A stretch of DNA of 33,397 nt, from the NCBI GenBank assembly GCA_947470105.1, contig CANISR010000017.1:1-33397 (forward strand), read 5' to 3'. The notes below the pieces were generated by a model. It had not been told where the DNA came from, did no database searches, and saw nothing but the letters and a program-made list of their open reading frames with translations. Positions 3,144-6,626 of the stretch are shown here, piece by piece. How positions within the stretch are numbered: position 1 is the stretch's first letter; each line of letters starts with the position of its first letter. Source of the stretch: Fidelibacterota bacterium (GTDB lineage: Bacteria > Pseudomonadota > Alphaproteobacteria > Rhodospirillales > Rhodospirillaceae). A program made the position numbers and the translations under genes.

Positions 3144-4235
3144 CTAGTCTTTGAACATCTTGGCGAAGCGACGGGCCTTGCGCTTCTTCCACAGGCCGCG
3201 GTGATAGGCGTCCGAGGCGATCAGCGGCATGACGCTGGAAGCTTCGGCGAACACCATCTGTTCGTAAGCCGTGTCCACCTTGCCCCAGGAATTGGCTTCC
3301 TTGAGGGTCGAGGACGAGCAGGCGCCATCGCGCACATCGGCGACGGTGATCTGCACGGCGTACTTGTGCATCTCGGCTTCGATCCCCAGCACTTCGGCGC
3401 AGACCACGGTGTCCTGGACGAAGTTCTTGGGCACGCCGCCGCCGATCATCATCAGGCCGGTGGTGCCGGCCTTGATCTTGATGTCGGTGAGCTCGCGGAA
3501 GTCGGCGATGGAATCGATGGTGATGTGGCTCTTGGGATTGCGCACCTGGTGCAGCACCAGGCCGAAACCGGCCGAGGAATCCGTGAACGCCGGGCAGAAG
3601 ATCGGCACGTCGTTGTCGTAGGCGACTTCGACCAGCGAATCCTTCTTCCGGTTCTTCTTGCCCTTCAGCCAGGCGCCCATCTGGCGGATGAAAGCGCGGC
3701 TCGAATACGGGCCCGCTTTCATGCTGTCGGCAATCTCGCCGATGGTGGCGTCGCAGTGTTGGAGCTCTTCCTCATCGATATAGGTATCGTAGATGCGGTC
3801 GATGTAGAGGTCGCGCAGCTGGGTGTCGTCGTTGTACTGCGAGCCCTGATAGTGCTTGAAACCGAGGGCTTCGAAGAAATCCATGTCGACGATGGCGGCG
3901 CCCGTGGAAACGATGGCGTCGACCATGCCGTAGCGGACCATGTCGCGGTACACATGCATGCAGCCGCCGGCGGAGGTGGAGCCCGCGAGCGTCAGCACGA
4001 TGGAGCAGCTGGGGTCGCCCAGCATCAGGTTGAACATCTGCGCCGCGCGCCCCGTGTCGCGCGAAGTGAACGACATCTTGCCATAGGCGTCGATGATCGG
4101 ACGCGCGTCGAACTTGGTGATGTCGATGTGCTCGACCGGCGTCGACAGCAGCATGGCCTTGCGGTTGGAGCCCTTATTCTTCGGGCCCAACTTAGGGGCG
4201 GATTTCTTGGAGGATTTTTTCTTGGGCGCGGCCAT
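3144..4235 (-). CDS. deoxyhypusine synthase family protein (probable homospermidine synthase-type)
   Basis: A 363-residue member of the deoxyhypusine synthase family, counted from the ATG that begins MAAPKKKSSKK. An in-frame ATG at 4268 would add 11 residues, and neither start has a convincing Shine-Dalgarno. The family binds NAD and moves an aminobutyl group from spermidine through an imine on a lysine. That lysine is present in SWGK (about Lys319). Other conserved pieces are TLAGSTSAGGCMHVYRD, PIFCPAFTDSSAGF and MMIGGGVPKNFVQD. Bacteria lack the eIF5A target, so the acceptor is more likely putrescine, giving homospermidine, or another amine. Its position directly downstream of an ornithine decarboxylase supports a polyamine role. 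The first 25 residues are lysine-rich and probably disordered. Family is certain; exact reaction is inferred. Confidence 0.88.
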   Translation of the reverse strand: MAAPKKKSSKKSAPKLGPKNKGSNRKAMLLSTPVEHIDITKFDARPIIDAYGKMSFTSRDTGRAAQMFNLMLGDPSCSIVLTLAGSTSAGGCMHVYRDMVRYGMVDAIVSTGAAIVDMDFFEALGFKHYQGSQYNDDTQLRDLYIDRIYDTYIDEEELQHCDATIGEIADSMKAGPYSSRAFIRQMGAWLKGKKNRKKDSLVEVAYDNDVPIFCPAFTDSSAGFGLVLHQVRNPKSHITIDSIADFRELTDIKIKAGTTGLMMIGGGVPKNFVQDTVVCAEVLGIEAEMHKYAVQITVADVRDGACSSSTLKEANSWGKVDTAYEQMVFAEASSVMPLIASDAYHRGLWKKRKARRFAKMFKD

Positions 4236-4316
4236 GGTGAGGCGTCCATCTACTAGGGTTGCGAACATAGGAAATCCGCCCGGGGCGATCTCGGGGCGGT
4301 TTATGGCAAATTCTCA

Positions 4317-4356: not shown

Positions 4357-5739
4357 CTATTTTAGGTCAAGAGGCGCGGATTCGGCATTACCGTCCGCTG
4401 ACATTGAGTCCGCGGACTGAGCCGACTCGGCGTTCAGGGTGTGGCCTGACGACACCACGCGCAGGTTGCCCCGGCGGCGCTGCGGGCGCGTATCGGAGGC
4501 CTGGGCCGCGGCTTCCGGCCACACGGTCGCGATCTGGGACGAATGGAAGCCGTTGAACCGGGTCTGCATGGTCGAACCGTAGGACCCAAGCATGCCGATC
4601 TCGATCCAGTCGCCTTCCTGGGTGTCTTCCGGGAGCATGAAGGGCCCCTTCATCTTGTCCAGGCTGTCGCAGGTGGGGCCGTAGAAGCTGTACGGCACCA
4701 TCTTCTCGGACGGCGTGCGCATATTGGGTGCGCTGGAGTTCTTGCCTGCCCGGCTGAGCGGACGCACCAGACGGACCGGGAAACGCCAGTTGAGGGCGCC
4801 GGCGTCGAACAGGCTGCCGTAGGTGCCGTCGTTGATGTAGAGGCGCCGGCCCTTACGCAGCGAGACGCGCGCGAGCATGGCGCCGCCGGCCGCGACCATC
4901 GCACGGCCCGGTTCACACCACAGCTCGGCCCCGGCGGCGACGCCGATATTGCCGATGATCGGCTGGGCGGCCTCGTTGATCGCCTGCATGTAATTTTCCA
5001 GCGGCGGCGGGGTCATGTTCGGGTAGTCGGCGGGAAAACCGCCGCCCACGTCGATGATGTCCACGCGCACTTTCGCCTTGCTGATGATGTCGGCGGCGCG
5101 GCCCAGGGCGGACTTGTACGCCACAGGGTCCATGCACTGGGAGCCGACGTGGAAGCAGACACCGATCCGGTGGGCCACCTTGCGGGCATGGCGCAGCAGG
5201 TCGGCGGCCGTCGCAGGGGCAGCGCCGAATTTGCCGGACAGGTCATAGGCCGCAACGTTGCCCGAGACCGCCAGGCGGATCATCAGGGTGAGGTCCTTGG
5301 CCGACTTGGTCTCTTCCAGGATCTTCATGAGCTCGCCCGAAGAATCGAGCGCGAATGTCCGCACGCCGAGCTTATAGGCCAGGCGGATGGCTTCGCGGCT
5401 CTTCACCGGGTGCATGAAGTGGAGCTCGGCGCTCTTGGGGAACAGGCCTTTGATCAGGCGCACTTCGTCCAGCGACGCCACGTCGTATTGACGGATGCCG
5501 GCGGCGTACATGTGACGCAGGAATTCTTCGCCCGGGTTGCACTTCACGGCGTAGAGCACCTTGCCCGGGAACTGGGCCAGGAACTTCTGGGCCTGGGCAC
5601 GGATCGGCTCCGGGAAAATGCACTGGACCGGCGCCTCGGGCTTCAGCCGCTTGGCGACGTCATCGACCGAGCGGTAGAGCGCTTCGGGATTGTCGGTCTG
5701 GTGGGGCTTTTCGAAGGAGCGCGTCTTGTTCTCGTACAT
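4357..5739 (-). CDS. ornithine/diamino acid decarboxylase, PLP fold type III (alanine racemase fold)
   Basis: A 460-residue PLP enzyme that should decarboxylate ornithine to putrescine, the first step of polyamine synthesis. YAVKCNP holds the PLP-binding lysine (Lys66). HVGSQ (197-201), DVGGGFP (230-236) and CEPGRAM (275-281) bind the cofactor phosphate and ring. GPTCDSLD carries the catalytic Cys357 and Asp358 contributed across the dimer. Beyond about residue 405 is an acidic, Ser/Ala/Asp-rich tail of some 55 residues not expected in the compact family fold. The start at 5739 (MYENKTRSFE) is preferred over a GTG-type upstream extension because homologues begin close to here and AAGAGAGA lies just upstream. 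Lysine could be an alternative substrate, as in some members. The gene is preceded by an unusual leader with its own small ORF. Confidence 0.92.
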   Translation of the reverse strand: MYENKTRSFEKPHQTDNPEALYRSVDDVAKRLKPEAPVQCIFPEPIRAQAQKFLAQFPGKVLYAVKCNPGEEFLRHMYAAGIRQYDVASLDEVRLIKGLFPKSAELHFMHPVKSREAIRLAYKLGVRTFALDSSGELMKILEETKSAKDLTLMIRLAVSGNVAAYDLSGKFGAAPATAADLLRHARKVAHRIGVCFHVGSQCMDPVAYKSALGRAADIISKAKVRVDIIDVGGGFPADYPNMTPPPLENYMQAINEAAQPIIGNIGVAAGAELWCEPGRAMVAAGGAMLARVSLRKGRRLYINDGTYGSLFDAGALNWRFPVRLVRPLSRAGKNSSAPNMRTPSEKMVPYSFYGPTCDSLDKMKGPFMLPEDTQEGDWIEIGMLGSYGSTMQTRFNGFHSSQIATVWPEAAAQASDTRPQRRRGNLRVVSSGHTLNAESAQSADSMSADGNAESAPLDLK

Positions 5740-5759
5740 TTCTCTCTTGATCCAGCAAG

Positions 5760-5983
5760 GCCGCTTTGGCGGCGTCAATCATCAGCCCGCCCGGGGAAAC
5801 CGGTCGGACGCCACGTCAACAATGGAAGGGGGTTTCAATCCCGAATGACGTCGAACCTGGAGATGACCACGAGGTCGTGGCCATCCCAGGCGATATGCCT
5901 GCAATGGACGAGGGCCGCCGGGACGCGGGCGGTTCGGAGGAAATTGGTCTTGCGGGTAGGTAGGGGCACTGCACGGCCTCCTT
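5760..5983 (-). promoter_or_regulatory. candidate regulatory leader of the ornithine decarboxylase (speF-motif-like position)
   Basis: The roughly 230 bases before the decarboxylase hold several inverted repeats readable on the minus strand. Repeats lie at 5887-5901 (five base pairs, five-base loop), 5867-5880 (CCACGA and TCGTGG), 5830-5842 (GGG and CCC around the small-ORF stop), 5771-5776 with 5807-5812 (GGCGTC and GACGCC), and 5760-5773 (GCCGC, loop TTTG, GCGGC). The last two share bases 5771-5773 and cannot form together; the second ends about a dozen bases before the decarboxylase Shine-Dalgarno. Alphaproteobacterial ornithine decarboxylase genes are known to carry a conserved upstream RNA called the speF motif. 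I infer that this may be a member but cannot align it here. Confidence 0.5.
5835..5969 (-). CDS. putative 44-residue leader peptide upstream of the ornithine decarboxylase
   Basis: A short ORF starts with GTG at 5969 and ends with TGA at 5835, 96 bases before the decarboxylase start. It has the Shine-Dalgarno AAGGAGG at 5977-5983, seven bases from the GTG, better than that of most genes in this window. The peptide begins MPLPTRKTNFLRTARVP, has a central HCRHIAWDGHDLVVIS (residues 22-37) and ends RFDVIRD. It uses CTA once and AGG twice, codons that look uncommon in this GC-rich sequence. In Escherichia coli speF, translation of a 34-residue leader (SpeFL) senses ornithine, so a leader-peptide role is plausible. 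The sequences are not obviously alike. No signal peptide or membrane segment is visible. It may be a regulatory uORF or a small functional protein. Confidence 0.55.
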   Translation of the reverse strand: MPLPTRKTNFLRTARVPAALVHCRHIAWDGHDLVVISRFDVIRD

Positions 5984-6230
5984 TATCAATTAGACGAACA
6001 AACAGTCCAACCAAGTAAAGGACGCTTACGTCGTTGCTTAACGGCTGATTGCTTTAGGCACGTGCGCGTACGTCTGGTTTCGCATTTACTCCTATTAGGG
6101 GGGATTGCAAGTAAAAATCCCCTTTGGGATCAATTATTTTCCCGTACGGTGCCGCGACAACGCACCGCGCTTGGAGTCATGGTGTGCTGACCGGCGCCGC
6201 GCAGGGGCGCACTCAAGGGGGAACACGACG
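5984..6230. other. gap between the polyamine leader and the MAPEG gene
   Basis: The 491-base space between the decarboxylase and MAPEG start codons must carry two divergent promoters. Beyond the leader described separately, this half is noticeably more AT-rich than its surroundings (around 5980-6010 and 6080-6145). It has a short repeat ATCCC-CTTT-GGGAT at 6116-6129. No -35/-10 pair is convincing on either strand. No further gene seen. Confidence 0.4.
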
Positions 6231-6626
6231 ATGCCGATTCAATTTCCATTCACCACGCTGGTCGCCGTCGCAGCGCTCGGCGTTTATGTCTGGCTGGCCA
6301 TGTGGGTGGGAAAAGCCCGCGGAAAATATGGTGTGGTGGCGCCCGCCGAGGATGGCCCGCCGGAATTCCGCCGCATCCTGCGCGCCCATATGAACACGCT
6401 CGAGCAGATCGTTTTGTTCCTGCCGGCGCTGGTCATGTTCGCCGTCGCCTGGGGCGATCAGGTCGCCGCCGCCATCGGCGTGCTGTGGCCGGTGGGCCGG
6501 GTGCTCTACGCCCTCGGTTACGCCAAGGCCGCCGAAAAACGCGGGCCCGGCTTCGGCCTTTCGTTCCTCTCGTCCTCGATTCTCTGGCTGGGCGCACTGG
6601 TGAGCGCGGTGATGACTCTTGTGTAA
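6231..6626 (+). CDS. MAPEG family membrane protein
   Basis: A 131-residue integral membrane protein. The start MPIQFPFTTL is chosen because AAGGGGGA lies about eight bases upstream; a longer in-frame ORF back to 6105 has no such signal. Four hydrophobic segments are visible, at about residues 7-24, 58-75, 78-96 and 112-130. Between the first two is VGKARGKYGVVAPAEDGPPEFRR followed by RAHMNTLEQ. The Arg-Ala-His-x-Asn-x-x-Glu pattern is the MAPEG hallmark (membrane-associated proteins in eicosanoid and glutathione metabolism). Bacterial members often bind glutathione or have unknown substrates. The gene stands alone, between the polyamine leader and the convergent phosphofructokinase. Family assignment is good, function unknown. 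Confidence 0.85.
   Translation: MPIQFPFTTLVAVAALGVYVWLAMWVGKARGKYGVVAPAEDGPPEFRRILRAHMNTLEQIVLFLPALVMFAVAWGDQVAAAIGVLWPVGRVLYALGYAKAAEKRGPGFGLSFLSSSILWLGALVSAVMTLV

Follow-up and report, generated by a model that had tools for sequence, protein, structure and literature searches.

The window, by which is meant the whole 33,397-nucleotide stretch of DNA analysed here, encodes on its minus strand a pyridoxal-phosphate decarboxylase of the ornithine/lysine group (ODC; 4357-5739), with the domains PF02784 and PF00278. Its closest solved structures are lysine/ornithine and ornithine decarboxylases, and its substrate can only be presumed, as no NCBIfam cut-off was reached. On the same strand, and possibly in the same operon, is a gene for a deoxyhypusine-synthase-like protein (3144-4268; NF002699, 570 bits against a cut-off of 500; PF01916), for which the NCBIfam name is 1,9-bis(guanidino)-5-aza-nonane synthase.

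Upstream of the decarboxylase, again on the minus strand, lies a leader ORF (uORF; 5835-5969) that runs from a GTG codon (5969-5967) through 44 sense codons (VPLPTRKTNFLRTARVPAALVHCRHIAWDGHDLVVISRFDVIRD) to a TGA stop (5837-5835). It is preceded by an AAGGAGG Shine-Dalgarno sequence (5977-5983) and a seven-base spacer (5976-5970). All these elements had been described in an earlier sequence-only reading, and are upheld by the sequence and its conservation; the distance from the stop to the decarboxylase ATG at 5739 is 95 bases, rather than the 96 given there. The frame stays open in the 5' direction as far as a TTG at 6014, but this alternative start, which would give 59 codons, was dropped in favour of 5969, because relatives have ATG, GTG, TTG or ACG at the latter position. 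No Pfam domain was matched in the peptide. An ORF of 44 codons is little evidence by itself, and the case for it rests on conservation.

The remaining features of this minus-strand leader flank the ORF. Just 5' of the decarboxylase ribosome-binding site (RBS), the sequence can form a GCCGCC-AAA-GCGGCC hairpin (5759-5773), with similar hairpins seen by eye in members of the genus, and a consensus fold of the stretch between uORF and decarboxylase contains hairpins, with no clear anti-Shine-Dalgarno switch. On the other side, an RNA element (5961-6075) extends over the uORF start, and a putative sigma-70-like promoter (6083-6110) consists of TTGCAA (6110-6105), a 16-base spacer and TAAATG (6088-6083). 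By eye, relatives have a similar TTGATTT...TAAATG directly 5' of the RNA element. A short ORF starting within the promoter (ATG 6085-6083) was discarded, as a one-base indel, found by eye, changes its frame between relatives.

Conservation of the leader peptide

The sequence-only reading proposed searching for the peptide upstream of decarboxylases. Across 61 genomes, 14 (the window's included) matched below an E-value of 1e-7, in every case directly 5' of the same decarboxylase gene. Scanning contigs with a 20-base piece of the upstream RNA yielded 24 relative loci, of which 22 are titled as metagenome-assembled genomes (MAGs) and two as uncultured bacteria from bins. Within this clade, the record titles of several loci read Candidatus Marinimicrobia and those of others Rhodospirillaceae, probably through mislabelling of MAGs. 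The uORF is full-length, with 40 to 57 codons and a TGA stop, in 22 of the 24 relatives. The exceptions are L107, where it has only 11 codons, and L099, where it is cut by the contig end, such that 22 of the 23 relatives readable that far have a full-length uORF behind the same RNA. The stop is TGA in all 23 full-length uORFs, counting the window's. The Shine-Dalgarno sequence is AAAGGAGG in 23 of the 25 sequences including the window, and AAAGGAAG in the other two. Relatives start with ATG, with GTG as in the window (L096), with TTG (L103) or with ACG (L087 and L100), and initiation in the last two is doubtful, because of this codon. In both, the rest of the frame is kept; initiation there could be weak, non-standard or absent.

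The C-terminal block of the peptide, (C)RHIAWDGHDLVVISRFDVIRD, is kept in most relatives. Three (L086, L089 and L095) have lost its AWDGHDL core while keeping the VLRD-type end, and the core is partly changed in L088. Coding potential was assessed over 69 ungapped C-terminal nucleotides in 20 sequences including the window, leaving out the three degenerate sequences, the 11-codon L107 and L099, which the contig end cuts. In the uORF frame, pS was 0.64 and pN 0.19, a ratio of 0.30, with stops in none of the 20 sequences; the other two frames had ratios of 1.25 and 1.62, and stop codons interrupted 10 and 9 of these sequences, respectively. With L086, L089 and L095 kept in, variability still peaked at third codon positions (0.51, against 0.35 and 0.28). 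A codon model with free omega fitted better than one with omega fixed at 1; this fit gave no omega value, and was excluded from the case for coding. Loss of the reading frame, which the same reading had named as the result that would count against it, appeared only in L107. As far as sequence comparison can indicate, the window's uORF is a conserved, translated leader ORF, and its peptide is under purifying selection.

Separately, L107 (genome G035) retains the RNA element, Shine-Dalgarno sequence and start, with its 11-codon uORF followed by unrelated sequence, and looks like a natural loss of the peptide.

Leader peptides are known at ornithine decarboxylases in other bacteria: SpeFL acts through ornithine-dependent ribosome stalling. 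The window's peptide gave a Smith-Waterman score of 21 against SpeFL (MENNSRTMPHIRRTTHIMKFAHRNSFDFHFFNAR), compared with a shuffled mean of 19.3, and 303 of 1000 shuffles scored at least as high; no BLAST match was listed. Judged on sequence, the peptide is not SpeFL, and is unrelated to it. The arrangement is nevertheless alike, as in SpeFL/orf34 a short leader ORF also stands 5' of an ornithine decarboxylase with an untranslated stretch between them (PMC6386406). In Salmonella, translation of orf34 keeps Rho from terminating transcription and makes the speF RBS accessible (PMC6386406). However, the start of orf34 lies at nucleotide 32 of the mRNA (PMC6386406), whereas the window's uORF is preceded by about 100 nucleotides of conserved RNA.

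The RNA element and its relationship to ar45 and speF

The element was delineated on alignment A1, which comprises the window and its 24 relatives, and with the models R1 and R2. Between the predicted 5' end and the start of the uORF, the sequences of A1 hardly differ outside one loop. The 5' end can form a terminator-like hairpin (6021-6074), in which GACG (6074-6071) pairs with CGTC (6024-6021) and CGTGC (6062-6058) with GCAACG (6037-6032), followed by CTTT, a short T run that makes for a weak terminator. Further downstream, both the consensus and the window's own folds predict a hairpin sequestering the uORF Shine-Dalgarno sequence (5980-6021), in which CCTTT (6021-6017) pairs with AAAGG (5984-5980). 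In the predicted full-length leader this Shine-Dalgarno sequence would be paired: the first six bases of AAAGGAGG have pairing probabilities of 0.98-0.99, the seventh 0.31 and the eighth 1.0. The A1 consensus fold sets the AAAGG of the uORF against CCTTT, and AGGCCGTGC against GCACGTGCCT. The latter is a long-range pairing of the window family (5971-6065), between GCACG.GCCT (6065-6056) and AGGCCGTGC (5979-5971), and is in competition with the 5' hairpin. One of its pairs is broken in two of the 25 sequences; its bases are almost invariant, and it therefore lacks covariation. As none of the pairs in the window-family consensus fold changes on both sides, this fold rests mainly on energy. Single-sequence folding energies were unremarkable, with z-scores of -1.3 for the window leader and -1.05 for the L090 element.

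More distant sequences were reached in two steps. Within the window's family, R1, which includes the window and scores it at 120 bits, is present in 25 of 73 genomes, one of them the window's own. It also matched 30 of 385 genomes of the class, taken as Alphaproteobacteria on the basis of record titles and of the Rfam families present, at E-values up to 1. The E-values of R1 and of R2 are rough, and many records are MAGs. One R1 match, L115, lacks the element and was set aside as chance. The R1-matched relatives span many families, and share the order GACGC...CGCACGTGCC...GCAACGACG...GCGTCCTTTTTGG...hairpin...GAGAGGGAGG...ATG. R2 is a covariance model built from 27 relatives, one per genome, with no window-family sequence, and provides an independent score of 54.2 bits for the window (E 1.8e-8). 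It matched all 24 window relatives at or below 2.3e-6. At E-values up to 0.01 it was found in 62 of the 385 class genomes: the 27 model sources, the window's own and 34 new ones. Among 20 distant loci, Rfam at gathering thresholds matched nothing but an RNase P, and no carrier of the element was matched in a plasmid collection.

Covariation was evaluated on two alignments. In A4, 82 sequences aligned to R2 (L204, L213, L214 and L215 omitted; 10 of the 25 window-family loci used), both-side changes are seen in 17 of 22 pairs and amount to 132 cells; the shuffled mean was 43, and none of 500 shuffles reached 132. These figures lean towards R2, because the alignment was fitted to it. The helix corresponding to the CCTTT/AAAGG hairpin is among those that covary. 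In A3, a MAFFT alignment not fitted to the model and omitting L115 and the diverged L133, 85.3% of cells were paired against 83.0% after shuffling, and 22 were changed on both sides against 11.3, each matched by two of 500 shuffles; such changes fell in 7 pairs against 5.4, a number matched by 112 of 500. The outer stem and inner helix of the 5' hairpin were 99.4% paired across the 27 relatives in A3, with three compensated cells. Its one variable inner pair changes from G-C to A-U in L126 and L129, and to G-U in L134; as L126 and L129 belong to one genus, their change may be a single event. A conserved 5' leader structure with covariation and a single pathway downstream, the pattern of a riboswitch, is indicated by the A4 comparison together with the genes behind the R2 matches, and the covariation more weakly by A3.

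The sequence-only reading had noted that alphaproteobacterial speF genes carry a conserved upstream RNA motif. This motif lies upstream of ODC genes (Corbino 2005, PMC1273637). In Sinorhizobium, smrC45 (speF) is listed next to SMc02983 (PMC2573895). In Bartonella, a second RNA of unclear function, ar45, is reported to be independently expressed from directly upstream of speF, which itself behaves as a leader (PMC7717549). Rfam at gathering thresholds had no match in the whole window, and three matches within 5600-6250 at E-values up to 10 fell far under gathering scores and were taken as chance. RF00518 (speF) was unmatched in the window and its own genome, and had no match in 5600-6250 at E-values up to 10; RF02347 (ar45) likewise had none there, and its best match in the window's genome was elsewhere, at an E-value of 6.7. 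Among the genomes searched, RF00518 occurs in 14 of 385 of the class (12 over the cut-off), and RF02347 in 4 of 142, plus G285. Both occur together in G088, G099, G129, G180 and G285, where ar45 ends 7 to 9 bases 5' of speF. By eye, these joined leaders contain CGCACGTGCC and AGCAACGACG, then a T run and a strand that could pair with GAAGAGG; for L064 and L072, the 5' block lay beyond the stretch read.

It is intermediates that link the window to these RNAs. Set against the speF loci and order-level decarboxylase leaders, R1 matched only the window at E-values up to 1; R2, not R1, bridges to some of them. R2 matched nine of the 14 speF loci at the ar45-speF junction, with rough E-values of 7e-4 at L070 and between 0.026 and 1.5 elsewhere, and the match was not convincing in the remaining five. 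The intermediate locus L112 scored 22.6 bits against ar45 (E 0.0068; gathering score 40). Folding of the nascent strand gave the same inner CGTGC/GCAACG pairing, with a bulged A, in the window, L131, L067 and L070; the best nascent fold of L112 has the outer stem without this inner pairing. With that exception, the loci share the two features proposed to define an ar45/speF leader superfamily, a 5' CGTGC/GCAACG hairpin and a U-rich strand pairing with a Shine-Dalgarno-like strand. This sequence evidence makes the window element distantly related to the orphan RNAs ar45 and speF. As neither Rfam model matches it, by score it belongs to neither family, and the relation rests on the intermediates; the link to speF hence stands as remote homology, and not as membership of RF00518 or RF02347.

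The likenesses to each known RNA are partial. Like the window element, speF is a polyamine decarboxylase leader in Alphaproteobacteria, in which, by eye, a U-rich strand after the CGCACGTGCC/AGCAACGACG block can pair with a GA-rich, Shine-Dalgarno-like strand, but no conserved ORF followed this stretch in the few speF loci viewed by eye. An ORF with an ATC start in a speF-type leader was dropped, as by eye its frames differ between relatives. ar45 shares with the window the predicted CGTGC/GCAACG hairpin followed by a T run, but has been described as an sRNA, whereas the window element belongs to a leader with an RBS at its end. In G285, a locus of the ar45/speF type (L067) and a window-type element (L116) occupy separate contigs, and an ODC-type gene follows each of them, such that the two versions of the leader coexist.

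Genes and leader peptides behind the element

The genes behind the element were determined at 76 of 80 R2 places, 27 of which are R2's own source sequences; G000 (the window), G428:C290, G237:C173 and G206 were left out, and places with low scores, L214 and L215 (E about 0.002-0.003) among them, may have been misassigned. At 65 of the 76 the downstream gene is of the ODC type (tblastn, E up to 1e-5), at six it is homospermidine synthase (at L212 in part only; for the protein of L182, the matches to solved homospermidine synthases have an E-value of about 9e-177), and at one, L196, there are adenosylmethionine decarboxylase and spermidine synthase (speD/speE). Altogether, a polyamine gene follows the element in 72 of the 76 places. 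At L185 and L125 the sequence is too short to reach the downstream gene, and at L184 the ORF behind the element has no assignable name. At L166 (G130), the element precedes a 294-codon ORF with a glutamine-amidotransferase domain and no neighbouring decarboxylase, which may represent another kind of target. Three elements are present in each of G333 and G409, two of them ahead of ODC-type genes and the third ahead of homospermidine synthase. The homospermidine synthase and speD/speE genes point to a polyamine, rather than ornithine, as the relevant signal.

This context bears on whether the main action of the 5' half is in trans, the role presumed for the ar45 sRNA, with the uORF incidental. 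Independent expression of ar45 fits such a role, but the element ends on an RBS in most places read and stands before a polyamine gene in nearly all, and ar45 itself sits directly upstream of speF; trans action is accordingly regarded as very improbable.

Among the ODC leaders, 13 of 65 have no uORF, and the RBS of the element serves the decarboxylase directly. In 48 this RBS starts an ATG uORF of 8 to 59 codons, less surely in L127 and L201, where the ORF overruns the first aligned decarboxylase codon, and the remaining four (L199, L203, L204 and L205) are ambiguous. That the RNA is conserved far beyond any single peptide, and that the direct arrangement exists, could mean that only the RNA matters, the uORF being a passive by-product of an RBS inherited from the direct arrangement of RNA and decarboxylase. 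Such a by-product should not show the purifying selection seen on the window-family frame, or length changes, from 40 to 57 codons, that preserve it, making this explanation improbable.

The uORF peptides are clade-specific, and recur inside clades. The ending SSMRAPD is found in L177, L179, L169 and L172, GR[KE]NPLSS in L151, L153, L155 and L156, and PRIER in the ODC leader L207, the homospermidine synthase leader L182 and L185, where the gene lies past the contig end; SCTTGG peptides are found in L175, L176 and L192. uORFs of 14 codons stand behind the element in L182, L185, L191, L178, L170, L121 and L125, several with AP.PR and a final R, and precede homospermidine synthase in L182, L191, L178, L170 and L121. 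By their sequence, these are candidate arrest peptides with proline runs.

The sequence-only reading had suggested that the window's peptide is itself a sensor, in the manner of SpeFL: ornithine or a polyamine would stall the ribosome at the conserved C-terminus, opening the decarboxylase leader. The C-terminal block, the invariable TGA and the low pN/pS ratio among the 20 best-kept sequences are in keeping with this idea, as are the recurring C-termini of other clades, including a PRIER ending shared by leaders of different genes. Conversely, the AWDGHDL core is lost in three of the 23 full-length uORFs and partly changed in another, L107 has only 11 codons, and the uORF-free ODC leaders elsewhere mean that the peptide cannot be the common sensor. 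What holds of the earlier suggestion is a conserved coding leader ORF unrelated to SpeFL; there is no such support for the sensing role assigned to the peptide, given a deeply conserved RNA and clade-specific, sometimes absent peptides. Sensing by the peptide itself is possible, but rather unlikely as the primary mechanism. Of the two, only the RNA is shared by all these leaders, which favours it over the peptide as the primary sensor; the peptide would then be a relay or second layer.

Proposed mechanism and significance

The reading preferred here, and considered probable, is that the uORF of the window yields a genuine leader peptide, and that its translation begins inside an RNA switch serving polyamine-biosynthesis genes in many Alphaproteobacteria. 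The conservation of the peptide, the structured RNA with compensatory changes in relatives, and the polyamine-gene context are established. Early in transcription, the 5' end would fold into the terminator-like hairpin (GACG/CGTC, CGTGC/GCAACG, T run). In the full-length leader, the conserved GCACGTGCC strand would instead re-pair with the region after the Shine-Dalgarno sequence. In the window family these two states would be mutually exclusive, because GCACGTGCC can pair in only one of two places, inside the 5' hairpin or with the bases that follow the Shine-Dalgarno sequence. The balance between them would be set by a signal from the polyamine pathway, most simply its end product, acting directly or via a protein. 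Translation of the uORF would keep the C-rich stretch after its stop (AAACCCCCTTCC) covered by the ribosome, leaving the leader open and the decarboxylase made; in its absence, transcription or translation would be attenuated. This C-rich stretch and the hairpins between the uORF stop and the ATG would thereby form the relay to the decarboxylase, and the conserved C-terminus of the peptide may add pausing at the stop codon as a second layer. At loci of the direct type, the same RNA would act on the enzyme's own start. A comparable design is the glutamine-II (downstream-peptide) riboswitch, an RNA switch that overlaps the start of a short conserved ORF, although the RNA, genes and lineage are different.

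More tentatively, the element may be the basic form of an alphaproteobacterial class of polyamine riboswitches, of which ar45 and speF are a split-up and rearranged version. A single RNA would then combine attenuator hairpin and RBS switch, acting in many lineages through a relay leader peptide that is perhaps a second, clade-specific polyamine sensor. Among the matches listed in the open-licence literature beyond the speF and ar45 papers, insofar as their text was available, there was no such uORF, and no element shared by multiple polyamine genes.

The speF motif has been known since 2005, and the accessible parts of later reports still describe its function (PMC7717549) and that of ar45 (PMC7717549, PMC12403871) as unclear. 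Agrobacterium speF RNA did not bind ornithine, lysine, diaminopimelate, putrescine, cadaverine or spermidine (PMC1273637); homospermidine does not appear in the list of ligands in the available text of that report. Homospermidine is a candidate ligand from outside the published binding list. Placing ar45, speF and the window element in one family, situated on the RBSs of polyamine genes and often acting via a leader peptide, would provide these RNAs with a testable mechanism, and indicates several dozen further candidate leader peptides.
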